64,000 nt of DNA from a virus. Below are positions 10,896 to 63,970 of this stretch, piece by piece. A model generated the notes under the pieces. It worked only from the letters and a program-made list of their open reading frames with translations. It was not told the DNA's origin and ran no database searches. The stretch is from the IMG/VR virus record IMGVR_UViG_3300005466_000026, positions 21,775 to 85,774 of that record; one strand, 5' to 3'. Within the stretch, counting starts at the first letter, position 1. Every line of letters starts with the position of its first letter. The translations under genes and the position numbers were made by a program.

Positions 10896-10918
10896 CCCCC
10901 GGTCAGCGCGACCGGGGG
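10896..10918 (-). terminator. Strong hairpin terminator
   Basis: CCCCCGGTC (10896-10904) pairs perfectly with GACCGGGGG (10910-10918) around a five-base loop. It lies just beyond the stop of the leftward gene at 10931-11089 and ahead of the gene starting at 10871. The minus strand continues AACTCTCAAGG, without a clear U-run. Confidence 0.65.
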
Positions 10919-10930
10919 TGTGAGGATGGC

Positions 10931-11089: not shown

Positions 11090-11092
11090 GAT

Positions 11093-21463: not shown

Positions 21464-21479
21464 CTGTGGCTCCTGTCGG

Positions 21480-27789: not shown

Positions 27790-28528
27790 GGCTCATCTCC
27801 AGTACATCTTTGAGTGGCTTAGAGTTCCAGAACTCGGCTACGTAGCGCTCCTCCTCGCCGAAGTCCTCCTGCCGCAGGATCCAGGACAGGTAGCTCCGGT
27901 CTATCTCCCTGACGTGCCTCCACTCCATGCCCTTGTACTTGCCGAAGCCGATGATCCTCTGCAGATACGGAGTGTTGGTCAGCTGCACCAGCTCGTCCGC
28001 CGTCTTGAGCGTGAGCATTCGCAGGACCAGCGTGGCGGTCGTCAGCGCGTCGGGCATCGCTCGGTGGGGAGGCCTGATGCAGTAGGGCACCGCGAGGTCC
28101 AGCCAGTATCGCAGCACCTGATTGGAGTGCCTCGGCGCGTCCGGCCACAGATGACGCGACGCCCTCCAGGTGCAGATCACCTTGACGCCCGGAGCCTCCT
28201 GCGTCAGCTTGTAGCCCGACTGCTCCAGCATCCGCAGATCGAAGTCCGCGTAGTGCATCGCCACGTACTGCGATGTCTTGATCTCCGTGAGGATGGACTT
28301 GTTGCGAGCCATCAGCTTGGCCATCGTGGGCGCGTGCTTCAGCTGATCGTCCGTGATGTGATGCACGGCTCTAGCTATCACGTTCATCGAACAGGTCGGC
28401 TTCACCAGCTGATCCCTTCCGAGTATCATCTGCTGAGTCTCTGCGTCGACGGTCGCCACGGCCAGCTCGCACACCTGATCCTGCTCGCTGTCTCCCGTGG
28501 TCTCCGTGTCGACTACCGCTATCCGCAT
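27641..28528 (-). CDS. DEDDh 3'-5' exonuclease (ExoX/DnaQ-like) with DUF3820-like domain
   Basis: VVDTETTG (residues 5-12) is Exo I; HYADFDLRMLE is Exo II; the late HRAMPDALTTA is the H-x-x-x-x-D Exo III. These are the catalytic residues of DnaQ-type nucleases. IGFGKYKGMEWRHVREIDRS, then YLSWIL (about 195-220), is the small domain often fused to phage ExoX. It would degrade ssDNA or 3' ends in repair and recombination. After EMSHDDAVL the product reads a Pro/Gly-rich tail that overlaps the next gene by 149 bases and may be non-functional. Confidence 0.8.
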   Translation of the reverse strand: MRIAVVDTETTGDSEQDQVCELAVATVDAETQQMILGRDQLVKPTCSMNVIARAVHHITDDQLKHAPTMAKLMARNKSILTEIKTSQYVAMHYADFDLRMLEQSGYKLTQEAPGVKVICTWRASRHLWPDAPRHSNQVLRYWLDLAVPYCIRPPHRAMPDALTTATLVLRMLTLKTADELVQLTNTPYLQRIIGFGKYKGMEWRHVREIDRSYLSWILRQEDFGEEERYVAEFWNSKPLKDVLEMSHDDAVLLQLREAATSGVPEPSGGEVVPDEGPDPAEVQVHERLPGAGQDH

Positions 28529-31074: not shown

Positions 31075-31338
31075 CTACGGCCAGTTCTTGTGAACGCAGC
31101 GTCCGCAGCCGTCCTCGCGACTAACTATCTCCACCGAGTTGACGGCCTCGTAGTCGCAGAGATCTACGATTATTCTCTCCAGCTCCTCCGGCTCCAGCTT
31201 CGCGAATAGCTGCTGCATGGCCAAGTCCCTCAGTCCCTCGTTTGAGGTGTACGGCTGGTCGCCTCCAGACTGTCGCCAGATGCGACAGACGTAGTACGGC
31301 GTCTGCACTCGTATCATGTCCTCGAACAGCATCGTCAT
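31075..31338 (-). CDS. Hypothetical 87-aa protein
   Basis: An N-terminal strand pair (YYVCRIWRQSGG), a central acidic helix (LEPEELERIIVDLCDYEAVN) and a C-terminal DGCGRCVHK cysteine pair. The ATG overlaps the primase stop, so it is translated with the primase. No family recognised. Confidence 0.6.
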   Translation of the reverse strand: MTMLFEDMIRVQTPYYVCRIWRQSGGDQPYTSNEGLRDLAMQQLFAKLEPEELERIIVDLCDYEAVNSVEIVSREDGCGRCVHKNWP

Positions 31339-46865: not shown

Positions 46866-47225
46866 CTATGGAAGTCTCAGTAGGTTGAAGCTGACCCGGA
46901 AGGTGCCGGGGGTCATGCGGTCTATCTTGGGAACCTCTTCCGGCCTGAAGATCCACGTGTAGTTGACCTTCGTTATGGGATGCAGCCACTCGAACGGCAG
47001 CGTCCCGTCCGCCAGCGTAGTCTCGAAGAACGTGTTGAACGTGAGCCGCTGCGCGCTCGTAAGGCGAAACGCGACCGCGGTGAGGGTCGAGACTGCAGTG
47101 CTGCGACGACGCATCTTCGCCGTCCCCACGCTTCCCTGAAACGAGGCGACGTTGACCTGCCTCTCCTCGGAGAAGTTGTTGAGGAGAGGACACTGCGGAA
47201 GAGTAGAGGGCCAAGTGTTGGTCAT
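46866..47225 (-). CDS. Minor tail protein (lambda gpM-like position)
   Basis: 119 residues with AFRLTSAQRLTFNTFFETTL, GTLPFEWLHPITKVNYTWIF and a final beta strand (GTFRVSFNLLRLP). This matches the short tail proteins that sit directly after the tape measure in siphophages and seal the distal tail end. Family name not certain. Overlaps the tape measure stop. Confidence 0.7.
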   Translation of the reverse strand: MTNTWPSTLPQCPLLNNFSEERQVNVASFQGSVGTAKMRRRSTAVSTLTAVAFRLTSAQRLTFNTFFETTLADGTLPFEWLHPITKVNYTWIFRPEEVPKIDRMTPGTFRVSFNLLRLP

Positions 47226-49366
47226 CGCACCTTGGTCGGTCGAACGCCGAACCGTCCTCTGTTCACGTCGTCGAAGTCGCCTCTGGCCTGAGCCTTGCGA
47301 ACTATGTCTACGATCATGCGCTCTCCGCCTGCTGGATCCTGCCGTCTCTGCGTGCGAGTCTCCGTGTCGGCGGACACGTAGTTGTTTATCTCCACCGTCT
47401 GACCGCCTCCTCTTCCCGCGGACATCGCGTTGGGTATGATGTTCCCCGAGGCGTTCGGCTTGAACAGCTCTGGTCCGTTCTCTCCGACAAGATACGCTCC
47501 GCCGGCGGACACGCTGCCACCGCTCGCTCTGGCTCCACTGAAGAAGGACGAGAAAATCGCGCCGAGACCTCCGGTTCCGCCTGGGACCGAGGTCGCTGTT
47601 CCCAGCAGTCCGGCCAGCGGTCCCTGACCCAGAAGAAGAGCCTGCTCCAGAGCGCGAATGAGATTGTTCGTCAGATTCTTCATGGCGTCTGCGGCGCTCA
47701 GGGTCTTATTGCGCAGACCATCCATGATGTCTATGAGCTGATTGCCTCCGAACTGCACGGCATTCTGGATGCCCTGAAAGGCGAGCTTGGTCTTGTCCGC
47801 GGCGTCGGCCGCCGTCAGCATTCGCTGCGACACGCTGGTGAACGAGTCCGCGTGCCGCTGATTCAGCTCGATGCCAGCCGCCGTCAGCGCCTCCTGCTGC
47901 GTCATGGACGCGCGAAGAACGGCGTAGCTGTCGATCTGCGCCTGAGTGACCTCGCCACCCTCTCGCTGAATGGCCTGCAGCAGCGACACCTCGGTGCGAA
48001 GCTGCTGATGCTCCGCAGCGGTCTTGCCGACCGCCGCCGCGTCCGCGTTGAGCGCCGCTATGTGCCGGTTGATGCTGTCCACCTGAGCCTGAAACGGATC
48101 AGCCTGACTACCGGCGGCTGGATTGAGAAGTGGCCTCGGCTTGAACGCACCTGGACCACCAGCGTGAGCACCCTTGTTCGGGTCGCCGCCGACCGTGACG
48201 TCCGACGCCTCGAACTCTGCTCTCGCCTGCTTCAGCTTGTCCAGCTGCGTCCTGAACTCGTCTATCTTCTCGCCGATGGCGATCAGCTTGTCGCGGTCCG
48301 TCGTGTCGTTCGCGGTGAGATTGAGAAGCTGTCCCAGCTTGGTGTTGAACGCCTGCTGAAACGATCCCTCCGCGCCTACGCCCTTCCCGTCTCCGGTAGC
48401 GATCCTCTCCTGGAGAGCCTCCAGATTAGTTATCTGAGTCTCTAGATCCTTGATGTTGGACTCCAGCGCCTTCGGACCCTGCTGCTCCGCTGGCTTGAGA
48501 GCGTCGAAGAAGTCCCTGACCGCCGCAGACATCTTGATGATGAGAGGTACTACAGAGGCCAGCGTCGGCACGAGAGCGCCGAGCGAGCTGCTCAGCTCGT
48601 CCCCGATGACTCTGGCGAGCAGCGACAAATTGGTTCGCGCCTCCTGAGCGCGCTTGACCGCAGCCTCATCGATGGCCAGTCCCAGCTCCCTCATCCTCTG
48701 TCCGGCCGCCGCGATGCCCTGCTCTCCGCCGGCCAGGATCGAGATGAACTGCTCGTTGTCCGTCTTGAAGGCCGTCTGCGCCAGCTGAGCTCTCTTGACC
48801 TCGTCGGTCGTCGACCTGAGAGCGTTGGCTATGACGTCCAGCCTCGCGGCCTGCGTGGGAGCCTTCTCGAACGCGTCCACAAAACCCTTGCCCACGTTGC
48901 TCAGCGCCTTGTAGAAGTCCTCCGCAGTATCCTTAGACGCCTTGCTGACCTCGGTGAACTTGTCTAGAGCCTTGTTCAGCTTCTCCTGCGGAACTCTCGC
49001 CTCGTCCGCGGCGACCGACAGCGCCTGAAGCAGATTGACCGGCAGACGCAGCTCGTCCGCGCGATCGCCGATCTTAGACAGACCGTCTATCAGAGTACCT
49101 ATCTTGGTGACTATCGCCGCGATGGCCACGCCGAACCCGGCCAGAAGGGCCACGCCGATGGTGTTGCCCGCGTCCTGAGCCGGACCCTTCGCGGCGTCTG
49201 CGAAGTTGCTCATGAACTTGGAGGCGTCGGGGTTCAGCTTGCTGAAGCTGTCCTCGATGCCCTTCACCGCGTTGCCGGCGATGGCAGACGCAGCGTCCAT
49301 GTCACTCTGAAACTTCGTCAGCTGCGCGGAGAGCGCTACGACTAGAGCTGCTGTCTCGTTTGCCAT
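47222..49366 (-). CDS. Tape measure protein
   Basis: 714 residues, long helical and Ala/Gln-rich, with a hydrophobic pair near residues 67-92 (TIGVALLAGFGVAIAAIV) and coiled-coil stretches (NIKDLETQITNLEALQERIA). The end ARASGGSVSAGGAYLVGENG plus PELFKP is the classic C-terminal signature of lambda-like tape measure proteins. It sets tail length and helps DNA pass the membrane. It directly follows the frameshifted chaperone gene. Confidence 0.9.
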   Translation of the reverse strand: MANETAALVVALSAQLTKFQSDMDAASAIAGNAVKGIEDSFSKLNPDASKFMSNFADAAKGPAQDAGNTIGVALLAGFGVAIAAIVTKIGTLIDGLSKIGDRADELRLPVNLLQALSVAADEARVPQEKLNKALDKFTEVSKASKDTAEDFYKALSNVGKGFVDAFEKAPTQAARLDVIANALRSTTDEVKRAQLAQTAFKTDNEQFISILAGGEQGIAAAGQRMRELGLAIDEAAVKRAQEARTNLSLLARVIGDELSSSLGALVPTLASVVPLIIKMSAAVRDFFDALKPAEQQGPKALESNIKDLETQITNLEALQERIATGDGKGVGAEGSFQQAFNTKLGQLLNLTANDTTDRDKLIAIGEKIDEFRTQLDKLKQARAEFEASDVTVGGDPNKGAHAGGPGAFKPRPLLNPAAGSQADPFQAQVDSINRHIAALNADAAAVGKTAAEHQQLRTEVSLLQAIQREGGEVTQAQIDSYAVLRASMTQQEALTAAGIELNQRHADSFTSVSQRMLTAADAADKTKLAFQGIQNAVQFGGNQLIDIMDGLRNKTLSAADAMKNLTNNLIRALEQALLLGQGPLAGLLGTATSVPGGTGGLGAIFSSFFSGARASGGSVSAGGAYLVGENGPELFKPNASGNIIPNAMSAGRGGGQTVEINNYVSADTETRTQRRQDPAGGERMIVDIVRKAQARGDFDDVNRGRFGVRPTKVR

Positions 49367-49367
49367 C

Positions 49368-49966
49368 TCACTGTATCGTCATGTTGGACTCGTGATAACT
49401 CATCACCATGGAGTCGAACTCCTCGTTGCTCGGTGGCTCCACTGGTGTATCTCCGCCCTGAGACTTGTTGTAGCCGTCTACGCTGGCGGTCAGCTCCCAC
49501 AAGGTCAGTTCGTCTGTCTGTCTTGGAGACCACCCGAGGGCTGCTCCGAGACCGTAGACTGCGGAGCGGCGAACTCTTCCGTCGTCGTGGTAGACTGGCG
49601 ACTTGGAGTCTCCTTGGCCGTCTCCGCCTTCTCTTTTTTTCCGACTTCGTCTCCAGGCACGCCCGTCAGTGCGGCCATGATGACGACCAACGCGATATAG
49701 ACGCTCTCTGTCAGAGGCCTCTCGTCTACGTACCGCTGAACCAGCACCAGAGCCTTGAGAGGCTCCTGACCAGCACCTATGAGTCCCAGACGAATGGTCT
49801 CCCTGATATCGTTCAGCTTCCACTTGCCATCGCGGATGCGGCTGAAGACCTCTGCTATGCCGCATCCGCACTTGTCCTCGAGCTCCAGTATCTGAGCTAC
49901 CTTCGCTATGTTGAACTTGTGCGTACCATCCGCCCAAGTCAACTCCACTTCTCCGTTCACTGCCAT
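49368..49966 (-). CDS. Tail assembly chaperone, -1 frameshift product (gpGT-like)
   Basis: A -1 shift at the A7 tract (49640-49634) joins 111 residues of the G frame to 88 residues of a second frame, giving 199 residues. The second part includes RRSAVYGLGAALGWSPRQTD and ELTLWELTASVDGYNKSQGG, which resembles the small GTA-type tail chaperone placed before tape measures. Without the shift this domain has no start codon of its own. Such GT proteins bring tape measure and tube subunits together. Confidence 0.8.
49505..49966 (-). CDS. Tail assembly chaperone, unshifted product (gpG-like)
   Basis: 153 residues from ATG 49966. The N-terminal domain (TWADGTHKFNIAKVAQILEL; KCGCGIAEVFSRIRDGKWKL; NDIRETIRLGLIGAG) resembles the GTA-family tail-tube chaperone. 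After residue 111 the sequence becomes Thr/Ser-rich (SRQSTTTTEEF) and probably disordered, as in other G proteins downstream of the slip site. Made in excess over the shifted form. Confidence 0.85.
   Translation of the reverse strand: MAVNGEVELTWADGTHKFNIAKVAQILELEDKCGCGIAEVFSRIRDGKWKLNDIRETIRLGLIGAGQEPLKALVLVQRYVDERPLTESVYIALVVIMAALTGVPGDEVGKKEKAETAKETPSRQSTTTTEEFAAPQSTVSEQPSGGLQDRQTN
49634..49640 (-). promoter_or_regulatory. Slippery heptamer for programmed -1 frameshifting
   Basis: In the G frame the codons read GGA AAA AAA GAG. The heptamer A AAA AAA fits the X XXY YYZ rule, letting both tRNAs re-pair one base back. The -1 frame then stays open to 49368 and encodes the second chaperone domain. 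Confidence 0.8.
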
Positions 49967-49996
49967 GATCCATATCTCCGTGGCTAGATGTGGAAC

Positions 49997-50461
49997 TCAC
50001 GCGGGAACGAACGTGAGTGCGCCGTTGTTCACCATAGTCAGGTCGAGAGTGACCTTCTGTCCACGAACACCACCGTACTTGAGGTCGGTGAGCAGGAACG
50101 ATCCCAGCCAGTAGCCGAGAGACAGCGGCAGAGTAGTCGGAGACACGAGCTGAATGCGAGCACTGCGCTCAGTCGCGCCCATGAACCAGTCCAGCCAAGT
50201 GTGAAACGACTCGCAGGCCATCACGCCAGAGCCAGACACCTCGGCCGACAAGGCGTTCACGTCCTTCGCCTCCCACGCGGGCAGAGAAGGATCGAGACAG
50301 TCCGGGATCAGCGTAGTATTAGTAGACGCCGACAGACTGAAGTTCTTGGTAGTCAACCCGCACGGCTCAGAGAAGACGTCCGGGCTCCCGGAGGGTGAGT
50401 CACCGCCGATGCCGATCAAGATCAGCAGCTTGGTGCCCGGGATAACGGTCGGTTGTGCCAT
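49997..50461 (-). CDS. Major tail tube protein
   Basis: 154 residues starting TVIPGTKLLILIGIGGDS, with GLTTKNFSLSASTNTTLIPD and a C-terminal YGGVRGQKVTLDLTMVNNGA. This is the TP901-1/GTA-type tube subunit pattern, which forms the hexameric rings of the tail. Position between tail terminator and chaperone is as expected. Confidence 0.85.
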   Translation of the reverse strand: MAQPTVIPGTKLLILIGIGGDSPSGSPDVFSEPCGLTTKNFSLSASTNTTLIPDCLDPSLPAWEAKDVNALSAEVSGSGVMACESFHTWLDWFMGATERSARIQLVSPTTLPLSLGYWLGSFLLTDLKYGGVRGQKVTLDLTMVNNGALTFVPA

Positions 50462-50478
50462 CTTAGTTTCTCCTTCGG

Positions 50479-50889
50479 TTAAGCTAGTTGTATCAACGCA
50501 CGAAAGTTCAGCGCGACGTGACGAGTCAGTCCGTCCGGATCACGCAGATAGTTGACGGTGTTCAGCTCGAACACTATCACAGAGTATCCAGAGACCGTGA
50601 GATCCTGGTCGTCCAGCGCGGCCACTACTGCCTTGCTGATCTTCTTCACCATCGGTATGCTCTTGTCTCGAGCCCATCCGTCTATGCTGAAGAAGATCTC
50701 TGTCCCGTCGATGCAGTCGGCCTTGTCTGGCAGAACCTGACTGTCACCTATGGAGATATATGGAAACGTAGGGCCGGGGGGAACCTCGTCGTACACCCGA
50801 GCAGGATCCCCGACGATGGCCTTGACGCCAGCGTCGGCCTTCAGCTTGGTGACTATCGCGGCCTGCAGCTCTAGTGATGGATCGCTCAT
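50479..50889 (-). CDS. Tail terminator / DUF3168 protein
   Basis: MSDPSLELQAAIVTKLKADA, RVYDEVPPGPTFPYISIGDS and FFSIDGWARDKS are typical of DUF3168, the tail-completion family (GTA gp8-like). It caps the tail tube and joins it to the head. 136 residues. Confidence 0.9.
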   Translation of the reverse strand: MSDPSLELQAAIVTKLKADAGVKAIVGDPARVYDEVPPGPTFPYISIGDSQVLPDKADCIDGTEIFFSIDGWARDKSIPMVKKISKAVVAALDDQDLTVSGYSVIVFELNTVNYLRDPDGLTRHVALNFRALIQLA

Positions 50890-51281
50890 GCTGAGTACTT
50901 CTTGATGTTGAGCGCTACCTTGGCCTTCATCTCTTCCTTGATCTGTCTCTTCATCCTGTTGTAGGTCGGAAAGAAGAACGGCTGCGCTGGCATGTTCACG
51001 GTGCCGAACTCGTCTGCTCTGGCGTAGTCGTACGGCTTAGAGGAGACGGACTCCCTGACGGTCTCGTGGCCACCCGCGACTATCCGCACGGTCGTGTCCT
51101 TCTTACCCGGCACCGTCTTGACTGTGGTTCGCAGAGTACCCTCGTGTACTGGAGCAGCGGCCGCGATAGCCTGTCTCAGCTTCTCGGCCTGCTTGTTCAG
51201 CTCCTCCACTGCGAGATCGTGCAGCTCCTTCGGGAGCTGTCTGGTCAGCAGCTGATCCAGCTTTCTGACTGAGTCGTTCAC
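50886..51281 (-). CDS. HK97 gp10-like tail/head-tail protein
   Basis: GTG 51281 overlaps the previous stop. KEGTLR-like motif appears as VHEGTLRTTVKT, followed by VRIVAGG, YDYARADEFGTVNMPAQPFF and a final helix. This is the HK97 gp10 family of head-tail joining proteins. 131 residues. Confidence 0.85.
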   Translation of the reverse strand: MNDSVRKLDQLLTRQLPKELHDLAVEELNKQAEKLRQAIAAAAPVHEGTLRTTVKTVPGKKDTTVRIVAGGHETVRESVSSKPYDYARADEFGTVNMPAQPFFFPTYNRMKRQIKEEMKAKVALNIKKYSA

Positions 51282-51652
51282 ACCGCTACTCCCTTCTCGC
51301 AGAGCATCTCGTACATGAACCCGTGACGTACTCGCCCGCCGTCCGGATCTACTATGGAGCGGATATTGTAGGTGTCGCCAGTCTCCTCGTTCTTGACCAT
51401 CCACTCGGTTGTGACCAGCGAGGTCATGGAGGACTGTCTGACTGTGATGTTCACGTAGTTCGTGCCCGTCAGCCGACTGGCGAGTATCTGCTCGCCTCCC
51501 AGCTTGGGCGAGATGTTGCCGCGCGTGACGAAGTTCGCGGTGCCCAAGAAGCCGTTCTCGGTGTCCCCGTAGTCAGGCTCGGGAGGCGAAGAGACCCCCA
51601 GAGCTTGTCTAGAGTAGAACCCGACCAAGTATCTCAGCTCACCTGACGACAT
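51278..51652 (-). CDS. Head-tail adaptor protein
   Basis: Start at ATG 51652 (MSSGELRYLVGFYSRQ) behind GGGAAAGAAG. YGDTENGFLGTANFVTRGNI, then the strand NYVNITVRQSSMTSLVTTEW and NEETGDTYNIRSIVDPD fit the phage head-tail adaptor family, which closes the head at the portal side. 124 residues. Confidence 0.75.
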   Translation of the reverse strand: MSSGELRYLVGFYSRQALGVSSPPEPDYGDTENGFLGTANFVTRGNISPKLGGEQILASRLTGTNYVNITVRQSSMTSLVTTEWMVKNEETGDTYNIRSIVDPDGGRVRHGFMYEMLCEKGVAV

Positions 51653-51818
51653 TCTTCTTTCCCTTGTTCTCTGGCCTCTCAACCACGACTGCGCACTCCT
51701 CGCGAACTGCCTTCTCGGCGCAAGCTCTCTTCACCAAGTAGGTCCCAGGCTTGTAAGACATCACGGACCTAGAAGACGGCCAGTAGTCGAACGGCTTCGT
51801 GACCTTTATCCACGGCAT
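51639..51818 (-). CDS. 59-aa hypothetical protein
   Basis: Start at ATG 51818, one base overlapping the glycosyltransferase-like stop. The sequence PWIKVTKPFDYWPSSRSVMS, YKPGTYLVKRACAEKAV is a common type of tiny protein in head-tail gene clusters of alphaproteobacterial phages. Role unknown. Confidence 0.65.
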   Translation of the reverse strand: MPWIKVTKPFDYWPSSRSVMSYKPGTYLVKRACAEKAVREECAVVVERPENKGKKNVVR

Positions 51819-52621
51819 CAGCGTATCATTCTCCACAGAGTTCCGTTGACCAGCTCGTCCTCGTTCCACTGATTGTACGCCAAGCTGTGAAGCCAAGGCA
51901 TTCGCTCCGGATAGACTGGCTTTTCTATTCTAGTGAAGTCTGTCTCGCCCACCAGCGCAGCAGCGCTCATCTTGTCGACGAACACCGGGCATCCCATCAC
52001 CACGGCCTCTACCGCGGCGATGCTACCGTGCGTGACTAGACAGTGAGCGTCAGCCAACTCCTTCTCGAGCGGCACCGGGCTCTCCTTGTGCCGCACGAAG
52101 ATCGGCCGATCAGTGTACTTCTTGAGCTCCTCGGCCACGTCCCTCGCCCAATAGACGTGAGCGAAGAGGTTCCAGTAGTCCGGCAGCGTGTCGGCTATCA
52201 CGATGCGCTTGCCGCTACTTCTCCACGGACGCAGCGACGACTCTAGTTTTAGAAACTTCCACCGATCCTCTGGTACGTCAGCGATGCTCTGCATCTGAAA
52301 GTGGTTGACATGCCATCTATAGTATCCTCCAGGAATTCCCATCTCACTGCCCTTGGGCAGATGCGTGGCAAACACGCGACGAAGATAGCCGCGATCCCAG
52401 TATATGAACTTTCTTCCGCTCTTTCTCCACTTGTCGTACCAAGGCTTGAGGAAGGGACTGCATCCGACGATGGGTATGACGTGCTCTGGCAGGTCATCAA
52501 GTCGCTGAGGATCGTCACGAACAACTCTCCCTATCTTCTGCCCTATGCGCTCGAACAAGTTCAACTTGAACTTCTTCAGTCCAGGAGGAATGAACAGAGC
52601 AACTGACTGCGGGTCTATCAT
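51818..52621 (-). CDS. Capsule/Kdo-transferase-like glycosyltransferase candidate
   Basis: TGATG overlap sets ATG 52621. AHCLVTHGSIAAVEAVVMGC, then PVFVDKMSAAALVG resembles the nucleotide-sugar-binding end of capsule polysaccharide export/transferase proteins (KpsC/KpsS type). The N-terminal half (SVALFIPPGLKKFKLNLFER) fits the first GT-B domain. The call rests on this one motif. It is the last of eight surface-glycan-type genes. Confidence 0.6.
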   Translation of the reverse strand: MIDPQSVALFIPPGLKKFKLNLFERIGQKIGRVVRDDPQRLDDLPEHVIPIVGCSPFLKPWYDKWRKSGRKFIYWDRGYLRRVFATHLPKGSEMGIPGGYYRWHVNHFQMQSIADVPEDRWKFLKLESSLRPWRSSGKRIVIADTLPDYWNLFAHVYWARDVAEELKKYTDRPIFVRHKESPVPLEKELADAHCLVTHGSIAAVEAVVMGCPVFVDKMSAAALVGETDFTRIEKPVYPERMPWLHSLAYNQWNEDELVNGTLWRMIR

Positions 52622-53292
52622 CACACCCTCCAGTGCTTCTGCACCCAGTCTAGATGCGTGAACTGCTCAGGCTTTCTCCAGCCGATGAACGCGACGATGC
52701 GACAGTTCAGCGGCAGAGCCGAGGAGTGCGGCGGCCATCCGGGCTTCTTGAAGCCGTAGATACCTGACGGATGTCCGCCCTTCCAGGTTCCGGCTTCAGG
52801 AAGCATGTGCCAGATCCAGCCCTGATCGTCAGGGAAGTCGTGATACTGTATCTTCTGCGCCTTATCCAGCGAGAAGTTTCTCCAGACCTCTGAATGACTA
52901 CCCGGTCTCAGCATGTAAATGCTGCAGTTGAACGGATTAGGATTAATCGCGTTGACACCCTTCAGTATGACGAAGGGCTCCTCCCGATCGAACAGCGGAT
53001 CCGTCCTGTCGACTATGACCAAGTCCAGATCAACTCCAACTATCCTGTCGGTGAGCTCGTGACGAGCCTGCCACTCCGGATCGAACGTGCGCAGCCTGCA
53101 GAAGCAGCCGCGCCCGATGAGCTCCTTGTCCTCCAGAGGAACCACGTCGTACCTGTCGCACGACTTGACGTCTCTGTCCGTTACCAAGACCAGTCTGTGC
53201 TTCTGCGCGTAGTGCCTGCGCAGGCCAGCGGCCAGCTTCTCCACGGACTCCAGGGGATACTTGCTGCCCCAGAGCCACGCCACGAAGTTCAC
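52621..53292 (-). CDS. GT-A-type glycosyltransferase-like protein
   Basis: GVDLDLVIVDRTDPLFDREE contains a D-x-D metal motif after a hydrophobic strand, as in GT8-like enzymes. HRLVLVTDRDVKSCD and NPNPFNCSIYMLRPGSHSEV fit the nucleotide-sugar and acceptor parts. The sugar is unknown. I prefer GTG 53292 (GTGA overlap) over the GTG six bases earlier. 223 residues. Confidence 0.7.
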   Translation of the reverse strand: MNFVAWLWGSKYPLESVEKLAAGLRRHYAQKHRLVLVTDRDVKSCDRYDVVPLEDKELIGRGCFCRLRTFDPEWQARHELTDRIVGVDLDLVIVDRTDPLFDREEPFVILKGVNAINPNPFNCSIYMLRPGSHSEVWRNFSLDKAQKIQYHDFPDDQGWIWHMLPEAGTWKGGHPSGIYGFKKPGWPPHSSALPLNCRIVAFIGWRKPEQFTHLDWVQKHWRV

Positions 53293-53858
53293 AGCCACAG
53301 CACACCGATCCCGTTGTCCTGACTGTCCATCCGTATCTCCTGGTGACGATGCCGGGCTTTTATCTCCCTCCAGAAGATGGGAACCTCTATCGGCTTCTTG
53401 TGCGGAGGCAGACCCTTCTTGCGATAGAATCCTATGTCGTGAAATGCTATCATCTTGGTGAGAGGACTGTAGTTCTCCCAGTCCTTCTTGACGTAGGGCA
53501 GCGTGTGATTAGCGTCTATGAACACAGCGTCAAAGGGACCTAGCGCGCGCACCTTGTCAATTATGTTCTTATCTGTGCTGTCTCCGAGTAGCAGATGCGC
53601 GTCATATCCGCGCTTCTTCAGCTCAGCTACGCACTCCTCTAGAGGCCCCTGACTCTTCTTGAATGACGCGTCACCGTGCGGCAGATCCACCGACACGATC
53701 CTAGATCCCCCCATTAGCTTGTTCGCGACGTACCAAAGAGATCCACCAAATTTGGATCCGACCTCCAGATACGACTTCACGTTATTGTCCACCAACAACT
53801 TGGTGAAGACCTCGATCTCAGTTCTATTCTGCAGTATCCCAGTCTCACACTTCATCAT
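53289..53858 (-). CDS. Class I methyltransferase (Methyltransf_24-like)
   Basis: VKSYLEVGSKFGGSLWYVAN is motif I, VSVDLP ends strand 2, and FDAVFIDANHTLPYVKKDWE plus MIAFHDIGF are the late motifs of SAM-dependent sugar or small-molecule methyltransferases. It is embedded between two glycosyltransferases, so a sugar substrate is likely. 189 residues. Confidence 0.75.
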   Translation of the reverse strand: MMKCETGILQNRTEIEVFTKLLVDNNVKSYLEVGSKFGGSLWYVANKLMGGSRIVSVDLPHGDASFKKSQGPLEECVAELKKRGYDAHLLLGDSTDKNIIDKVRALGPFDAVFIDANHTLPYVKKDWENYSPLTKMIAFHDIGFYRKKGLPPHKKPIEVPIFWREIKARHRHQEIRMDSQDNGIGVLWL

Positions 53859-54667
53859 GTGGCTATCATCCTCATTGCTGCGTCCTTAACCTCGTCTACT
53901 GAGATATTGGACATGGCTCTCTTGCAGTGATCGCACTTCTCGATGTGACCGCAGGCCTCTGCTCCCCCGGTCAGATTGACGTGTCCCTCGTACCCGGTAA
54001 CAGCCGGGGGGATGAACCCGCCGAACAGCACGACTGCGGGAACTCCGACGGCCGCAGACGCGTGATGCATCCCGCCCTCAGGACCGATGTACAGCGCAGC
54101 CTGCGACAGCGCGGAGATCACGTGACGAAACTTAGGCAGCTCCACGATAGCCGCCTGCTGAATTATGCGCCGCGAGTTCTTGTGCTTGAACTGAATGACG
54201 TCGACGCCCTGAAGTATCAGGCGACGCGCGACCTCCTCGTACTTCCCCTCGCCCCAGTCCTTGTTCGGCGCCACCGACTTGTGCCACGGCACGTTCGGCT
54301 CGATTACGACGAAACCCGGCTTGAAAGCCTTGGCGACGTTGGTCTCCTGCTCGTCGAAGAAGAACTCTCCCGGCGTAGGACGGAAGTCGAAGTTCCAGAC
54401 CCACCTGCCATTCACCAGCTTGTTGTACTTGCGACGTCCCTTATAGTGATCCACCCAGATGAGGTCTTGGTCCCTCTCACTGCCCGGAGGAGCCACGTTG
54501 GGATTATTGTAGTAGATCTCAGGACACCAGCTGGACCAGCTGATCCTCTGTCCGTCGCCGAAGGCCACTCGCTTGCCCTTGGCGTGCGCTCCTCGCGCCA
54601 TGCCAGAGCCCATGATCTCGTCGCCGAAGCCCACTCTGCTAACTCCATCCCATGCAGTGGTCGCCAT
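53855..54667 (-). CDS. GT9-like (heptosyltransferase-type) glycosyltransferase
   Basis: FVVIEPNVPWHKSVAPNKDW and YIGPEGGMHHASAAVGVP followed by AVVLFGG are the signature parts of the GT9 heptosyltransferase domain. The late CGHIEKCDHC cysteines recall the C-terminus of that family. The first domain is short (270 residues compared with about 350). Overlaps the FkbM gene end by 29 bases. Confidence 0.8.
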   Translation of the reverse strand: MATTAWDGVSRVGFGDEIMGSGMARGAHAKGKRVAFGDGQRISWSSWCPEIYYNNPNVAPPGSERDQDLIWVDHYKGRRKYNKLVNGRWVWNFDFRPTPGEFFFDEQETNVAKAFKPGFVVIEPNVPWHKSVAPNKDWGEGKYEEVARRLILQGVDVIQFKHKNSRRIIQQAAIVELPKFRHVISALSQAALYIGPEGGMHHASAAVGVPAVVLFGGFIPPAVTGYEGHVNLTGGAEACGHIEKCDHCKRAMSNISVDEVKDAAMRMIAT

Positions 54668-55295
54668 TCATCTCAAACAACTCTCTCGCACCCCACGACT
54701 CAAGCAGCAATTTTGCGTCGTGTCGCTCCTTGCCGTAGACAGACTTATGCTTCCTCGTCTTGTCGCCCTTCTGCTCGAGGATGATTATTGGTCTGTGTCT
54801 CTTGATGATGTTCTCGCCGCCCTCCACGACGAAATACTCATAATTTTCAACGTCGATCTTGATAAAGTCAACGTTCACGAAATCAAAATCATCCAGCTTT
54901 ACCATCGAGACACCAGTACCGCCCTCGATAACTTGCGTGCTCCCGGTACTACCGTGCATGAACTTCAAGCCGACTTCTGCGTGCTGATGTCCAACCGCGC
55001 AGTGATGTACCTCATAATTCTTGAGGCCAGACATATTTAGTCGGAGGCACTCGATGTGTTCTGTGACCGGCTCAAAACCGATCACCTTATCAAACTGCCT
55101 CGCGAGATGCATGGCCCATAGACCAATGTGCATCCCTACGTCTAGAGCACAGCGCCTCTTCTTTACTCTTCTCAGAGCAGCGTCAAGCTTATGATACTGA
55201 TAAGTACCTCTGCCGTCTACCTTTGGTCCTCTGGCGACCATCTCGACTAAGTGAGTCTCACTGTCGGGGAACCAAATTCCATCTGCGCACTTCAT
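54639..55295 (-). CDS. FkbM-family methyltransferase
   Basis: ALDVGMHIGLWAMHLARQ (motif I), VIGFEPVTEHIECLRLNM, then MVKLDDFDFVNVDFIKIDVE and NYEYFVVEGG are diagnostic of FkbM-type O-methyltransferases acting on glycans or polyketides. 218 residues. This stretch is visibly more A/T-rich than the genes around it, suggesting separate acquisition. Confidence 0.85.
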   Translation of the reverse strand: MKCADGIWFPDSETHLVEMVARGPKVDGRGTYQYHKLDAALRRVKKRRCALDVGMHIGLWAMHLARQFDKVIGFEPVTEHIECLRLNMSGLKNYEVHHCAVGHQHAEVGLKFMHGSTGSTQVIEGGTGVSMVKLDDFDFVNVDFIKIDVENYEYFVVEGGENIIKRHRPIIILEQKGDKTRKHKSVYGKERHDAKLLLESWGARELFEMNGDHCMGWS

Positions 55296-55921
55296 CGGTT
55301 CTTCCTAGCCATCTCGTAGTCAAATCTGATGCCTCGCGCCCAGATGGCCGCAGGCTGAGGAACAGGCTGCTCGAACTCCTCCAGCTCGATCTCGCATATC
55401 TCGGAGTAGTGAATACGCCGAAACCCCATCCCCTTTATCAGCTCGTCTACCTCGTTTCGCTCCTCCAGAGAGCCGCGCCACACGAAGAACTTCTTGCATC
55501 TATCCGCGAGCCACTTGACCAAGCTGTCCAGGTCTCTCTTCTCCATGACTCTGAACAGCTTGTGGTAGACAGCGAGCATGAGAACTATGTCATAGCTATC
55601 CCTCAGGTTCTTGCCGAAAGCCTTCTCTATGGCGGCACCACCTCCGGTGAGATCCACCACCTCGAACCTAGCGTCGACGCTGCGAATGTCGGCGAACCAC
55701 TCGTTCGCAACCTCCATTCCCTTCACATAGTTGTCGCATCCATGAACGACACTAGCACCAGCAAGAACAAGATCGTGGCACACAGCACCGCGATTGCAAC
55801 CAACGTCAAAGACACTCGCGCCCCGCGCGCGAGGAAGAATATCAGCGAGACCGTCAAGACGAAACCCGCTAAAATTAATGACGCGACGCTGAACACCCTT
55901 GTCCGTCCAAGTTGATGGCAT
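55292..55921 (-). CDS. Class I SAM-dependent methyltransferase
   Basis: ASVFDVGCNRGAVCHDLVLA is motif I; GCDNYVKGME ends strand 2; RFEVVDLTGGG and YDIVLMLAVYHKLFRV are the middle motifs. I begin at ATG 55921 rather than 55942, because the earlier ATG lies inside the upstream gene. Related enzymes act on sugars or lipids. 209 residues. Confidence 0.75.
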   Translation of the reverse strand: MPSTWTDKGVQRRVINFSGFRLDGLADILPRARGASVFDVGCNRGAVCHDLVLAGASVVHGCDNYVKGMEVANEWFADIRSVDARFEVVDLTGGGAAIEKAFGKNLRDSYDIVLMLAVYHKLFRVMEKRDLDSLVKWLADRCKKFFVWRGSLEERNEVDELIKGMGFRRIHYSEICEIELEEFEQPVPQPAAIWARGIRFDYEMARKNR

Positions 55922-55922
55922 C

Positions 55923-56741
55923 TTAGGCGGCTCTCTTTCCACCGCGAACGGCGTCGTAGCTGCCGAACATCTCGTCGACCGACGGCTCGTACCTGTCCGC
56001 CGTGTATCCCTCCGCCTGCGCCTCGTCCCACAGCCTGTCGACCATCTGCTGGACCTCAGGATGCGCGTGAGGCTGCGGCTTGTCGGCCCGAAGCGTGAAG
56101 GCGTTCCAGTGCTGCCTGCCGCTGGCCTTTAGACGCGGCATCGCCCACTTCAGGTGAGGCTGCGTCTCCACCTTCGTGAAGTGAATCAGCTTGATCTCCG
56201 GATCCGCGAGACTCTTGTACTTCTCGCCGTCCAGGCAGTTCCAGTTTCCCTGGAAGGGAGCTATCGCCCCGCCGATGTTGTTGCGAACCTGCCGGTACAG
56301 ACCCTCTCTGCTGCGCAGCTGATCGAACGGCACGATAAACTTCTTGGCTCGCTCGCAGTCGAACAGAAGAACGCAGTGTGTGTTCGGGCTCTTCGCGAGT
56401 ATCGCCTTGCCGTCCGGTATCTTCTGGTTCCAAAGCTCCGCGGGATCCGCGCAGTAGATCTGATCCACGTCGTTGTAGATGCCCTTGCCCCTGAACCCGC
56501 AGACGTGCGGTATCGCCCAGCGAAACGCGCTGAACGGAGTGGCCCATCCTCTGGTATTCCAACCCTCACCCTTCTTCGGATTGCTGTACCAAGGAGACGC
56601 TGGATCATTCGACAGCTTCATCCACGTGATGTCTACCGGCATGGACGAGAACTTGCGAACCGTGTACTCGAACATTCCCTGCGACTCGGCGTCCTCACCG
56701 TTCGCGCTGCATCCCACGAATATGCGTATGGCTTCAGTCAT
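55923..56741 (-). CDS. GT-A-type glycosyltransferase-like protein
   Basis: ATG 56741 overlaps the upstream stop. IRIFVGCSANGEDAESQGMF opens a Rossmann-like domain, GIYNDVDQIYCADPAELW carries a D-x-D motif, and IKLIHFTKVETQPHLKWAMP matches the late H-x-x-x-x-x-K/H-P-W motif of GT8-like enzymes. 272 residues. The sugar and acceptor are unknown. Confidence 0.7.
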   Translation of the reverse strand: MTEAIRIFVGCSANGEDAESQGMFEYTVRKFSSMPVDITWMKLSNDPASPWYSNPKKGEGWNTRGWATPFSAFRWAIPHVCGFRGKGIYNDVDQIYCADPAELWNQKIPDGKAILAKSPNTHCVLLFDCERAKKFIVPFDQLRSREGLYRQVRNNIGGAIAPFQGNWNCLDGEKYKSLADPEIKLIHFTKVETQPHLKWAMPRLKASGRQHWNAFTLRADKPQPHAHPEVQQMVDRLWDEAQAEGYTADRYEPSVDEMFGSYDAVRGGKRAA

Positions 56742-57394
56742 AGACTCCATCTCCTGAGCATCTGTTCTATGGTCATCTTCGGAAAGCACTCGATGGTGCT
56801 GGTCTTGGAGCAGTTGACGACGTCTACCCCCATCTTCTTGAGTACGGGAGCAGCGGCGGTCATGTGTCGCCGCCACTCGTGAAAGCGACCGTTGTCCGGA
56901 TTGCGCAGCGGCGCTGGATGAGCACCGTGCCAGTGAACTCCGCCGTGCTCGCTGAAGTCGAAGCCCACCAGAGCGACACCAGTCGCGCCGAACTGCGTCA
57001 CCAGATTGAGAACCTGATACCCGGAGTTGCCGCCAGCGCCGACGACCCCCGGCTCGTCGTAGAGCATCTTGTGTATCAGGTTCTTGGCCTTGTCTCTGGC
57101 AACTACGACGTCATGGATGCCCTTCTCCTTAACGCCGTGCCCGAGTCTTACTCCCTCGAAGCCCTTAACCTTCTCGCGGCGAATGTGCCACCACACGTCG
57201 TCGCATCCGTAGAGAACTTCCGCCCAAGGACACAGTCGGTAGCTCTCGTTGATGGCGACAACGTGGATCCGGTCCCGCAGCATCTCAACGCCGACCTTGT
57301 TGGCGCTAGGACCCGCTGCGACTACGGCGACGCACTGACCTCTCCAGTCCTGCCACCACTTGAACCGGGTCGACCCTCTCTCCCAGAGATCCAT
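56738..57394 (-). CDS. DUF115/MptE-like protein
   Basis: CVAVVAAGPSANKVGVEMLR with HVVAINESYRLCPWAEVLYG is the N-terminal signature of DUF115-like proteins (motility accessory factor Maf or 6-hydroxymethylpterin pyrophosphokinase-like). GGNSGYQVLNLVTQFGATGV and ALVGFDFS continue the fold. Maf proteins help attach nonulosonic acids to flagellins, so this gene could act in protein glycosylation within the cluster. 218 residues. Confidence 0.7.
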   Translation of the reverse strand: MDLWERGSTRFKWWQDWRGQCVAVVAAGPSANKVGVEMLRDRIHVVAINESYRLCPWAEVLYGCDDVWWHIRREKVKGFEGVRLGHGVKEKGIHDVVVARDKAKNLIHKMLYDEPGVVGAGGNSGYQVLNLVTQFGATGVALVGFDFSEHGGVHWHGAHPAPLRNPDNGRFHEWRRHMTAAAPVLKKMGVDVVNCSKTSTIECFPKMTIEQMLRRWSL

Positions 57395-60300
57395 CACTGA
57401 CTATTATTCCTGGGACCAGAGGTCAATACTGGTGATCTAGGATCAGAGAAGTCTCTGGGTCTAGCCTCGAACGGTCTCCCTCGGCCGACGCCGGGGGTCG
57501 GTCTTCTGCGAGGCGGTGGGATCGGAGCTGGCACTATCGTAGGCGGACTGCGCAGGAACGAGCGAAGCTCGTTCGGATAGTGATAGCCGATCGGCGGCGG
57601 GAATACCGCCGTCGTGGGCGGCATGGCCTCCGGCCGACGAGCGAGGAACGGCGCGAAGAAGTAGCCGTATCCACTCGCCATTCGCTGAGCAGCAGACGGC
57701 AGAGGCCAGTCGTCCTGATTGACCGGCAGAGGTGGTGTGTGCAGCGCAGTCGTCTGCTGATCGAACCACGTCGGCAGCTGAGAGACGCGGCGCGGAAACG
57801 CTAGCAGATCAAAGTTGCTGACCGGCCTGATCTCAGGCGCGGCCTGCGGACGAGAGATCCAGGTGAGAACCTCTCGACGCTGCTGAGCCGGAACTGGCCA
57901 GTCGTACTGATTGACCGGACGAGCAGAAGCAGAGGCCTGGATGACGATGTTGCTCTGCTGAACCGCCTGAATGAAGGTCTGCGGGCGTATCGGTATCGAG
58001 CCGTCGAAGTTGTTGACCGGCCTCGGCTGAACCTGCTGCGCGAAGTTCGGCGATTGCGTCCAGGTTATCGCCTCTCGAGTTCTGCGAATCGGCAGCGGCC
58101 AGTCGTCCTGATTGACCGGCATCTGCTCTGGCGCGCCGAACTGCGGCGAGCGCGTGTAGGTGATCGCGTCCGGCGTGCGCCGGATCGGGAGCGGCCAGTC
58201 GTCTTGGTTGACCGGCATCCTGTCTGGCGCACGCGGAGCAAAGGTATAGCCGACAGCGTCGCGAGTACGAACGATCGGCAGCGGCCAGTTGTACTGATTG
58301 ACCGGCATCCTCTCGGGTGCACGCGGCGAGAACGTGTATCCGACTGCGTCTCTGGTCCGCAGAATCGGCAGCGGCCAGTCCGACTGATTGACTGGCTTCT
58401 GTGCCGCTGGCGTGCGGAGAGCAACCGCGAACGGCGCGAGATCATAGTTGAAGTACGGCTGCTTCCATCGCAGAGAGTAGTACGGAGCTCTGAATACGTA
58501 CTCGATCTGGATGCCAGCGTTGACCCAGGAGCGCAGACTGATCGGGTAGTCGACGCGAGCAGGAAGCGGCCAGTCGTACTGATTTCTCGGCAGCGTGACA
58601 GCCGCGACACTCTTGAGCTGCGCGTTGAAGTGAAACGCGACGTCTATAGATCGCTGAGGCTCCTGCGTTCCCCAGTCTACGACGCGAGACGGGATGTAGG
58701 TCACCGGCGTCGAGGCATTCGGCGACTGGATCCACGTCTTGACTTCCTCGTCAGCCCGACGCAGCGGTAGCGACCAGTCGGACTGATTGACCGGCTTGGC
58801 GCTCACGACTTGCGCAGGCTGCGGCGCTTGAGTCCAGGTGCGGACCGGCTGCGCCATCCTGATCGGGAGCGGCCAGTCAGCGACCAGAACAGGCTTCAGT
58901 CCAGTAGCAACTCGCGGACCCTGCAGCCAAGTTCTTATGACCTGCTGAGCCTGAATCGGCAATGGCCAGTCGAGCTGATTTGCCGGCCGAGAGACGGCCT
59001 GTGCCGTCAGCAGCGCGACGTTGAACGGCTGCTGCCAAGGCTGCGCGAATTCAACCGGTGCTGGCGTTCCCCAGTCGGAGACTCCGCCGGGCATGTAGCG
59101 TGCCGCGTCGCGAGCAATGGTGGCGAACGGGGGAGACGGCTCCGCCTGCCAAGTGCTGCCGCGCGGGAGCGGCCAGTCGTACTGATTGACTGGCAGCGAT
59201 ACCGCAACAGTCACCTGAGGCGCGCGAGTCCACGTCCGCAGGCTGATCGGATAGACCTGCGACACTGGGAGAGACCAGTCGATGCTCTGCCGCTGCGGAG
59301 GAGGATTTGGTGCCTGCGGCTTCGCAGACCACGTCCTCAGCTGAGACGGATAGACTGGAGCAGTCGGCAGGTCCCAGACGACCTGCTGCTGTGGTCTCGC
59401 GTCTGGAGCACGCGGCGCTCTCGCGAACGTCCGCAGGTCTACCGGATAGTCTTGACCAATCGGCAGCGTCCACTGCGACTGAACCGGCTTGTTGACGACT
59501 GTCGGAGACAGCAGCGCCGGATTAACAGCGATGTAGGTCTGCGCCTTGCGCGGATCCTCCCACGTGCCCCAATCGACGACGCGCGAGGGCATATAGTTGG
59601 GCGGAAGAAGCGGAAGAAAATCAACCGTCCACGTTCGCAGACTGATAGGAAATTCTCGCGCAATCGGCAGCGGCCAATCAAATTGGTTGGCTGGCCGTAG
59701 CAGCGCGCCTCTTAATCCTGTGCTGGCCTGTAGCCACGTGCGCAGGTCCATCAAGACCGGCGCGGGATAAGAGGTCGCTGGCGGCTTTTCCGTTAGACGG
59801 CTATTCCACTCATGCGCAGGACCGGAAAGCGACTCCGAGAAAACGACAATCGCCATCGCGCCGTCTTCAAGGTTCGTGCTTCCCGTGCAGACGCAGTTCG
59901 CCGTTCCCGAAGTCGTCTTGGTCGCGACCGTGTGACAAAAGTTAGTGACGTCGTCTTCCAAATCTTCGGTGAAGGAAGTCCACGTTTTCGACGCTGTGCT
60001 ATTCGTCGCGCAACCAGCGCAGGCGAGACCAAGACCATTGGTCGGAATAGTAACAGACGCCGTCAGCGGCGCAGTCGCGTCCATGTCGGTCGACGTATTC
60101 GACGCAGTTGACGCAACAGTGAAGCTCGCACCGAGAACGCGATAGACCGAAATCTTCGTCGTGTTGATCGACGGGTTGCCGCTGAATGTAACCTTGATGG
60201 TCGCTGTCGTTCCGATAGGAACGTGCAGCACCGCCCATGCAGCGCCGACCGTTGTAGAAAATCTTACGTTGACCGGAATCGCAGCGGTCGCATCGCCGCC

Positions 60301-60471
60301 GCCGGAGTCAATCGTCACGCCCAGAAGATTTAGATTTGCCTCCCATGTAATCGGGATGGCAATAACGCGATCAGCAGCAGCTACGCCGGTAGAAACACCG
60401 GAATAGGTAACGACGTTCGCAGTACCGGCAGCACTTGCCGGATCGGCTGTTCTGGTAACAGACGCAGCCAT
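57394..60471 (-). CDS. Large protein made of DWPLP repeats
   Basis: 1025 residues. The first 230 form a beta-rich domain (RVIAIPITWEANLNLLGVTI; SVYRVLGASFTVASTASNTS) like phage head-decoration or fibre domains. From about residue 255 to 950 there are roughly 16-20 units of 35-45 residues built around N-x-x-D-W-P-L-P-I and a following L-R-T-W or A-V-G-Y-T-F. A Pro/Arg tail follows (PAPIPPPRRRPTPGVGRGR). The Trp-Pro-rich repeat has no family I recognise. It may be an elongated virion protein or adhesin. Confidence 0.75.
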   Translation of the reverse strand: MAASVTRTADPASAAGTANVVTYSGVSTGVAAADRVIAIPITWEANLNLLGVTIDSGGGDATAAIPVNVRFSTTVGAAWAVLHVPIGTTATIKVTFSGNPSINTTKISVYRVLGASFTVASTASNTSTDMDATAPLTASVTIPTNGLGLACAGCATNSTASKTWTSFTEDLEDDVTNFCHTVATKTTSGTANCVCTGSTNLEDGAMAIVVFSESLSGPAHEWNSRLTEKPPATSYPAPVLMDLRTWLQASTGLRGALLRPANQFDWPLPIAREFPISLRTWTVDFLPLLPPNYMPSRVVDWGTWEDPRKAQTYIAVNPALLSPTVVNKPVQSQWTLPIGQDYPVDLRTFARAPRAPDARPQQQVVWDLPTAPVYPSQLRTWSAKPQAPNPPPQRQSIDWSLPVSQVYPISLRTWTRAPQVTVAVSLPVNQYDWPLPRGSTWQAEPSPPFATIARDAARYMPGGVSDWGTPAPVEFAQPWQQPFNVALLTAQAVSRPANQLDWPLPIQAQQVIRTWLQGPRVATGLKPVLVADWPLPIRMAQPVRTWTQAPQPAQVVSAKPVNQSDWSLPLRRADEEVKTWIQSPNASTPVTYIPSRVVDWGTQEPQRSIDVAFHFNAQLKSVAAVTLPRNQYDWPLPARVDYPISLRSWVNAGIQIEYVFRAPYYSLRWKQPYFNYDLAPFAVALRTPAAQKPVNQSDWPLPILRTRDAVGYTFSPRAPERMPVNQYNWPLPIVRTRDAVGYTFAPRAPDRMPVNQDDWPLPIRRTPDAITYTRSPQFGAPEQMPVNQDDWPLPIRRTREAITWTQSPNFAQQVQPRPVNNFDGSIPIRPQTFIQAVQQSNIVIQASASARPVNQYDWPVPAQQRREVLTWISRPQAAPEIRPVSNFDLLAFPRRVSQLPTWFDQQTTALHTPPLPVNQDDWPLPSAAQRMASGYGYFFAPFLARRPEAMPPTTAVFPPPIGYHYPNELRSFLRSPPTIVPAPIPPPRRRPTPGVGRGRPFEARPRDFSDPRSPVLTSGPRNNSQ
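57700..59705 (-). repeat. Tandem DWPLP-encoding repeat array
   Basis: On the plus strand the core GGCAGCGGCCAGTCG or close variants recur about every 105-140 bases (for example near 58089, 58191, 58272, 58371, 58569, 59169, 59669), each encoding the reverse of D-W-P-L-P. Units at 58.1-58.4 kb are the most alike, suggesting recent duplication there. Confidence 0.75.
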
Positions 60472-63229: not shown

Positions 63230-63970
63230 TCACGTATCCCAGTAGGAGAAGCCGGTCGGCGGAGCGAAGCGGCACGACGTCGCTGCGGTCCTCATGTGAC
63301 CGCTGTTATCGCCGTTGTCGATCATCTGAGTCGCGGCGAACCACGTACCTGACGGAGACCAAGTGAAGACGGGATTGTTACCCGTCGCAGGATTAGATGG
63401 TCCCCATATTGGGGCCGTAACGCCAGCACCAGAATGCCAGTAGCCATACCAAGCCTTGCCGGAATCAAAGTCGGCGGCGAAGCACAGCACGTCAGCAAGA
63501 CCTAAGAAGTTGTCGCCGGCCGGTTCATTACCGACATTGTAAGTGACGCTCGCTCCTACGTCGCCGTTACCAACTCCGCTGCCGAACTCATTGCGGATCA
63601 CCCAGTGCAGGGCACCAGTCATAAAACTGTTCTGGTTGCCATCATTAATCGTGGCTCCCCAACAGACTTTATCGAATAGCGAGGCGAGCAGCCTGATGTG
63701 GATTTCCCAATAAACTTTCCCAGAAGTCTTGCCTGTAGTGCTGAGAGATTGGTTCCACTGGAGACTTGTAAGACCCTGCGAGCGCACCTGCCAATTGCTG
63801 TTGCTCAGAATAAGCGACGTTCCTGTTTTTGCCGGATCGAACGTCGTCGTCTGCGTCTCAGGAAAATTTCCCCAGAATAATTTTCGATTAAGAAAAACCG
63901 CGTCGTGTACGTCGAAAGAATTCCGCTGTCCGCCGTTGCTGAAAGAAAACTCTTTCAGAAACATATTCAT
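63230..63970 (-). CDS. SPRY-like domain protein, possibly continuing past the window edge
   Basis: KLFWGNFPETQTTTFDPAKT, LILSNSNWQVRSQG, TGKTSGKVYWEIHIRLLASL and VCWGATINDG match the SPRY/B30.2 beta-sandwich pattern (Y/W-W-E, G-x-x). Phages use it in virion proteins that bind host surfaces. The ATG at 63970 has a weak ribosome-binding site, and the frame is open to the window end, so the true start may be outside. 246 residues as given. Confidence 0.65.
   Translation of the reverse strand: MNMFLKEFSFSNGGQRNSFDVHDAVFLNRKLFWGNFPETQTTTFDPAKTGTSLILSNSNWQVRSQGLTSLQWNQSLSTTGKTSGKVYWEIHIRLLASLFDKVCWGATINDGNQNSFMTGALHWVIRNEFGSGVGNGDVGASVTYNVGNEPAGDNFLGLADVLCFAADFDSGKAWYGYWHSGAGVTAPIWGPSNPATGNNPVFTWSPSGTWFAATQMIDNGDNSGHMRTAATSCRFAPPTGFSYWDT

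Follow-up and report, generated by a model that had tools for sequence, protein, structure and literature searches.

Eight genes in a row on the minus strand of the virus record IMGVR_UViG_3300005466_000026 encode glycosyltransferases and methyltransferases, and together they constitute a recurrent module that is not peculiar to this phage and that lies mostly at the junction between the head and neck genes. The stretch of DNA analysed, referred to here as the window, comprises 64,000 nucleotides (nt) and corresponds to positions 21775-85774 of the 85,774-bp record; the cassette occupies positions 51818-57397 of it. The cassette probably serves the O-glycosylation of a virion protein in the cytoplasm: a protein related to the Maf glycosyltransferases of flagellin would start the glycan, the other glycosyltransferases would elongate it and O-methylation would cap it, with nucleotide sugars supplied by the host.

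Gene content of the cassette

All eight open reading frames (ORFs) that an earlier note, made from the letters of the DNA, had described as glycosyltransferase- or methyltransferase-type genes are present where it placed them, and their codon usage matches that of the long genes of the phage, so that they score as coding. In the order of transcription, they are the following.

56738..57397, minus strand: Maf-like/DUF115 single-domain glycosyltransferase (PF01973, MptE-like superfamily), 219 amino acids (aa), first cassette gene; phrog_4603 'alpha-2,3-sialyltransferase' (E 2.5e-41), PF01973 in relatives, fold
55923..56741, minus strand: GT8-like GT-A glycosyltransferase with a D-x-D motif, 272 aa, named GTa; PF01501 in relatives, fold
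55292..55942, minus strand: class I S-adenosylmethionine (SAM)-dependent methyltransferase, named MTa; Methyltransf_12 (E 6e-4, below the cut-off)
54639..55295, minus strand: FkbM-family methyltransferase; PF05050 (E 3.5e-16), phrog_8156 (E 1.9e-23)
53855..54667, minus strand: glycosyltransferase of the GT9 (ADP-heptose heptosyltransferase) family; PF01075 (E 3.1e-9, above the cut-off)
53289..53858, minus strand: methyltransferase similar to CmcI/rhamnosyl O-methyltransferases, named MT24; PF13578 (E 8.5e-8), PF04989 (E 3.9e-6)
52621..53298, minus strand: GT-A glycosyltransferase with invariant DLD and DQ motifs, named GTb, from a family that includes PmgQ of phage P1; phrog_1962 (E 8.4e-16), alignment, phmmer clustering
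51818..52624, minus strand: putative GT-B-like glycosyltransferase with a weak DUF6716 match, 268 aa, named Kps, last cassette gene; PF20471 (E 0.006, below the cut-off)

According to the annotated starts, each cassette gene shares 4-29 nt with the next one, head to tail, and the start of the Maf-like gene is overlapped by 4 nt by the stop of the gene for a 1025-aa repeat protein. Comparison with a near-identical contig (L004), which covers seven of the genes, gave ratios of nonsynonymous to synonymous substitutions (dN/dS) of 0-0.15, although some of the genes differ at few positions; these seven genes are under purifying selection. A hydropathy window revealed no obvious membrane segment in any of the eight proteins, all of which look soluble from their sequences. 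A megablast search of the cassette region against named phages returned no match.

The Maf-like protein

The Maf/DUF115 label given to the first protein in the earlier note was correct: PF01973, the Maf_flag10 catalytic domain, is matched by 39 of its 49 relatives, while the window copy alone reaches just E 0.033. The AlphaFold (AF2) model of the protein, with a predicted local distance difference test (pLDDT) score of 96.8, has its best structural match in the central domain of the Maf flagellin glycosyltransferase from Magnetospirillum (5MU5; Z 15.7, root-mean-square deviation 3.1, 181 residues, chain residues 265-513), followed by the GT42 sialyltransferases CstI and CstII (Z 12.6) and an archaeal HPPK of the MptE type (Z 11.3), a ranking that re-aligned Foldseek matches only, such that families outside that list could also fit. 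GT42 enzymes resemble the model in fold, but the identity is about 13%, no significant match to the GT42 sequence family was found for the Maf-like family, and no genes for synthetases of cytidine monophosphate (CMP)-activated sugars were found in 37 cassette records. A PDB sequence search with the profile of the Maf-like family gave no match either. As the 219-aa protein aligns solely to chain residues 265-513 and does not present the three-domain architecture of Maf, it may, judging from the model, work like a Maf catalytic core, yet it is not classed as a Maf.

Positions that are invariant or nearly so include G29-P30-S31, N50, G126, D147, H155 and H160, and those of the GPS, N-S-G and H-W-H-G-x-H motifs are conserved over the 49 sequences. 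This conservation speaks against the idea that the enzyme fold of the Maf-like proteins is degenerate, that they act as chaperones or minor structural proteins, and that the enzymes beside them are unrelated cargo. Such a role would suit the labels of their homologues ('structural protein' in PAJU2 and Eowyn, 'putative morphogenetic' in P1), but the transferases constantly accompany the Maf-like gene in a fixed order, and the P1 proteins PmgO and PmgP are dispensable and outside the virion table of that phage. On balance, the idea is improbable.

The other glycosyltransferases and the methyltransferases

The four further glycosyltransferase-like enzymes that had been noticed are two GT8-type proteins, one GT9 protein and one weak GT-B-like protein. 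By family, D-x-D motif and modelled fold, GTa is a GT8 enzyme: PF01501 (GT8) is matched by 15 of 28 relatives, the D-x-D motif is invariant and the model (pLDDT 92.3) aligns with the GT8 structure 3TZT (Z 16.8) and with LgtC (Z 14.9), although a PDB sequence search with the GT8-like family profile gave no match. The 268-aa protein has a weak match to DUF6716, described as 'putative glycosyltransferase'; PF20471 is matched, also weakly, by 7 of its 23 relatives, and nothing significant emerged from a PDB sequence search with its family profile, so that its designation as a GT-B-like glycosyltransferase is a weak one. Since neither GTa nor this last gene has a clear match of its own, both were assigned through their families.

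The GT9 protein scores 37 bits against PF01075 (cut-off 22). In the alignment of the GTb family the DLD and DQ motifs are invariant, while in the F-H-G motif the His of most members is replaced by Ile in the window copy and two close relatives. Profiles likewise point to three sugar-type methyltransferases, one of them of the FkbM type: the FkbM protein matches PF05050 with 60.2 bits (cut-off 22.7), MT24 matches PF13578 with 33.5 bits and PF04989 with 27.2 bits, and MTa has the weak Methyltransf_12 match listed above.

Position within the late operon

The cassette had been thought to take the place where capsid genes usually lie, and locating these genes beyond the window had been proposed as a check. 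They were found at the left end of the record, where positions 3092-11720 hold genes for terminase, a protease-capsid fusion, portal and adaptor on the strand of the cassette; a gene for a collagen-like portal-adjacent protein is also among these head genes. A near-identical contig, IMGVR_UViG_3300026095_000052 (L007, L021), runs from the head genes into the lectin, tailspike and repeat-protein genes and the cassette. It thereby joins both record ends and places the cassette between the head module and the neck/tail module of one late operon, in the order terminase, capsid, portal, adaptor, fibre-like genes, cassette, head closure and tail. The cassette therefore does not replace the capsid genes, which lie upstream, at the opposite record end, and are contiguous with the operon; nor is exactly this spot a usual one for capsid genes. 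Its neighbours in the window are listed below.

63230..63970, minus strand: probable structural protein, which links to the head genes across the record ends; phrog_10080 (E 4e-7), junction in L007
60913..63228, minus strand: pectate-lyase-like tailspike/fibre protein, encoded between head genes and cassette; PF12708 (E 1.9e-8), weak match to phrog_2234 tail spike
57394..60471, minus strand: 1025-aa Pro/Thr/Ser-rich repeat protein directly upstream of the cassette, presumed virion protein and candidate acceptor, from its position and the 4-nt overlap; no significant Pfam or PHROG match
51278..51682, minus strand: head closure protein Hc1, encoded downstream of the cassette by the first neck gene that was recognised; phrog_25 (E 9.1e-6)
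47222..51404, minus strand: neck and tail genes (HK97-gp10-like, tail terminator, major tail protein, chaperone, tape measure); matched by tblastn/phmmer in annotated phages, which have them in the same order

The portal-adjacent protein (L002:3742-5298) has 518 aa, with collagen-like repeats, a C-terminal match to the portal family and a weak match to the carbohydrate-binding family CBM5/12; genes related to it follow the portal gene in many relatives.

Recurrence among phages

IMG/VR holds at least 496 relatives of the Maf-like protein and 112 of the GT9-family protein. Genes were called on about 140 related loci and labelled through phmmer comparison with annotated structural proteins and the proteins of the cassette; given that the loci were centred on cassette genes, deduplicated by hand and labelled by sequence similarity, the proportions that follow describe this sample only. 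Wherever at least two cassette genes occur they lie on one strand (98 of 98 deduplicated loci), and in a scan of the Maf-like genes 58 of 59 loci also had a structural gene flanking them in the same orientation. The order is also maintained: the Maf-like gene precedes the GT9 gene in a ratio of 50:1 and GTb in a ratio of 53:1, and GTb precedes the DUF6716-like gene in a ratio of 41:2. The usual layout is adaptor, Maf-like, GT8, optionally a methyltransferase and FkbM, GT9, methyltransferase, GTb, glycosyltransferase and Hc1. A short version, with the Maf-like gene and GTb, lies between adaptor or capsid and Hc1. In two loci (L154, L169) the cassette is found between capsid and portal, and in three others (L020, L025, L035) a methyltransferase homologous to MTa is located elsewhere, between terminase (TerL) and capsid. 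Three loci with similar head genes (L030, L032, L036) represent empty sites, in which the adaptor directly adjoins Hc1, which indicates that the module is accessory.

Among named phages, PAJU2 presents the order Hc1, Maf-like, 275-aa protein, methyltransferase and gp13, with the block between head closure and a gp10-like gene, and Psp6 the order capsid, Maf-like, 277-aa protein, methyltransferase and connector. Homologous blocks lie between capsid and Hc1 in Tetraselmis viridis virus S20 and around the terminase genes in DSL-LC06, and in CcrColossus and CcrPW, two phages of Caulobacter, homologues directly follow a tail gene. A relative also carries a second, divergent Maf-like gene (L008:4289-4933), about 30% identical to that of the window, which is flanked by the head-closure gene and the tail gene that comes next. 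GT9-gene loci were found in genomes of Bradyrhizobium, Phenylobacterium and Hyphomonadaceae, from which the host of the phage is likely to be an alphaproteobacterial soil bacterium.

Proposed function and alternatives

The mechanism that we infer, including acceptor, donor, order of the enzymes and benefit, is the following. The cassette would be expressed together with the late morphogenesis genes, and in the cytoplasm the Maf-like enzyme would transfer a first sugar, probably from a CMP-activated keto-sugar of the host, to Ser or Thr residues of a structural protein of the phage. Maf enzymes are described as O-glycosylating Ser/Thr residues of flagellin with nonulosonic acids, and one of them as accepting both Neu5Ac and Kdo (PMC11339370). 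Through the action of both GT8-type enzymes, the GT9 enzyme and the weak GT-B-like protein, this sugar would grow into a short oligosaccharide, which the FkbM, CmcI-like and third methyltransferases would cap by O-methylation. The glycan would be accessory, that is, dispensable for assembly but able to alter the particle surface and, with it, adsorption, stability or recognition. Candidate acceptors are the capsid, the collagen-like portal-adjacent protein with its putative carbohydrate-binding domain, the tail tube and, in this phage, also the Pro/Thr/Ser-rich repeat protein. This last protein was not adopted as a general acceptor, as in most relatives the Maf-like gene directly follows the adaptor or capsid gene.

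Several points weigh against virion glycosylation. For all these phages it is a prediction from the genes. The GT9, GT8 and FkbM enzymes are also typical of lipopolysaccharide (LPS) or exopolysaccharide synthesis, and the match to Maf spans the central domain only, the other two domains of Maf being absent. No CMP-sugar synthetase (PF02348) was found in 37 cassette records, so the donors would have to be those of the host. Finally, phage PBC2, with just a putative methyltransferase, yielded no virion glycoprotein by staining (PMC12894461).

The earlier note had left two options open, virion glycosylation and a change of the host surface glycan. In the second, the cassette would modify the LPS core or another surface glycan of the host late in infection, and thereby block superinfection or the binding of progeny to debris. 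The heptosyltransferases form family GT9, and hexosyltransferases of the LPS core belong to GT8, so that direct modification of the core by soluble transferases is conceivable, and LPS-modifying morons are common in phages. An integrase-family match in 23 of 36 cassette records, many of which are thus probably temperate, would also suit this explanation. A prophage LPS glycosyltransferase, not necessarily one of this cassette, is reported from Sinorhizobium (PMC5537653). However, the cassette lies inside the late head-neck operon in many lineages, its first enzyme is Maf-like, the GtrA flippase is absent from all 37 records (the same search was positive in 7 of 14 control genomes), no tyrosine integrase was detected in this phage, and late expression would presumably alter only newly made LPS. 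Modification of the host surface is thus the less likely option, though, given the LPS-core families, it is the main rival.

A further explanation is that hypermodified phage DNA, containing 5-hydroxymethyluracil derivatives, is what the glycosyltransferases and methyltransferases decorate. The phage does encode genes of this kind, within the region 20312-28528 of the window.

20312-21463: thymidylate synthase homologue
23100-24260: radical SAM/SPASM protein
25329-25943: methyltransferase
26914-27789: 5-hmdU DNA kinase helical domain

These genes are located about 24-37 kb from the cassette, and the kinase family (PF18723) was found in none of the 36 other cassette records by a search that was positive in the genome of the window, which indicates that the cassette is independent of that DNA pathway. 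DNA decoration is accordingly very improbable. The cassette, which occurs with and without an integrase, tracks neither lysogeny, nor GtrA, nor DNA hypermodification. Together with the operon position across many phages and the Maf catalytic fold, this favours virion glycosylation over the host-surface option, as something that we infer.

A more specific version of virion glycosylation can be formulated, although it is doubtful. Almost every Gram-negative host makes CMP-Kdo. The Maf-like enzyme might add Kdo, the GT9 enzyme heptose and the GT8 enzymes hexoses, which would build an O-methylated oligosaccharide resembling the LPS core on a virion protein from host precursors. The particle would then be cloaked in the surface sugar of its host, as a general strategy extending from P1 to soil phages.

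Comparison with known systems

With the Maf flagellin glycosyltransferases (5MU5, CbMaf) the cassette shares the central PF01973 catalytic domain, while the phage protein is a single domain of about 220 aa without the N- and C-terminal domains and is encoded with virion rather than flagellar genes. The gtrABC serotype-conversion clusters are likewise phage-borne sets of glycosyltransferases, but the cassette has neither GtrA (in the 37 records) nor membrane proteins and occupies a different genomic position.

As in phage systems for virion glycosylation, the glycosyltransferase genes of the cassette are encoded among virion genes. Virion glycans of mycobacteriophages affect recognition by antibodies, and such glycans could also influence adsorption and stability. 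In Che8, Corndog and Myrna, phage-encoded glycosyltransferases modify capsid or tail proteins (Freeman et al. 2023, as cited in PMC12363180 and PMC12894461). In contrast to those systems, the cassette starts with a Maf-like enzyme, comprises up to eight ordered enzymes at the head-neck junction, belongs to phages of Gram-negative hosts and has glycosylation as a predicted activity. No mycobacteriophage appears among the listed BLAST matches of the cassette proteins, and a search of open-licence papers revealed no description of a Maf-centred phage cassette.

The relationship with P1 involves two protein families. PmgO and its neighbour PmgP are paralogues of the Maf-like family, and PmgQ is related to GTb by phmmer clustering (L043:4938-7496); all three are annotated as 'putative morphogenetic', and their genes are late-region and accessory, as in the cassette. 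P1 differs in having only the Maf-like pair and one transferase, with a protein phosphatase gene (Ppp) between PmgP and PmgQ. The genes pmgO, pmgP and pmgQ are classed as non-essential (PMC10695390), and the virion proteome table of P1 (PMC9024508) does not list their products, as would be expected of modifying enzymes. Their genes lie near but outside the run of virion genes, which is a further point against a virion-glycosylating role. The P1 papers that were consulted contain no mention of a glycosylation role for the three proteins.

The recurrence of the cassette in more than 100 other phage sequences and the presence of two of its families in P1 suggest that sugar chains coat the particles of many phages that infect Gram-negative bacteria, by the action of the phages themselves. 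If so, particle glycosylation would be common in these phages and organised around an enzyme of the flagellin O-glycosylation type, rather than an oddity of mycobacteriophages. PmgO, PmgP and PmgQ, which are uncharacterised although P1 is a standard laboratory phage, would acquire a testable function, and so would families that currently carry the label 'alpha-2,3-sialyltransferase' or 'structural protein'.

Other genes of the window

Far from the cassette, on the plus strand (2719-3489), the window encodes an O-methyltransferase of the TylF (macrocin) type, homologues of which adjoin the capsid gene in one related locus (L020) and lie upstream of the terminase gene, on the opposite strand, in another (L022). 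Positions 31335-32933 encode an archaeo-eukaryotic primase domain of the type found in TOTE conflict systems (AEP-TOTE), together with PriCT-1.

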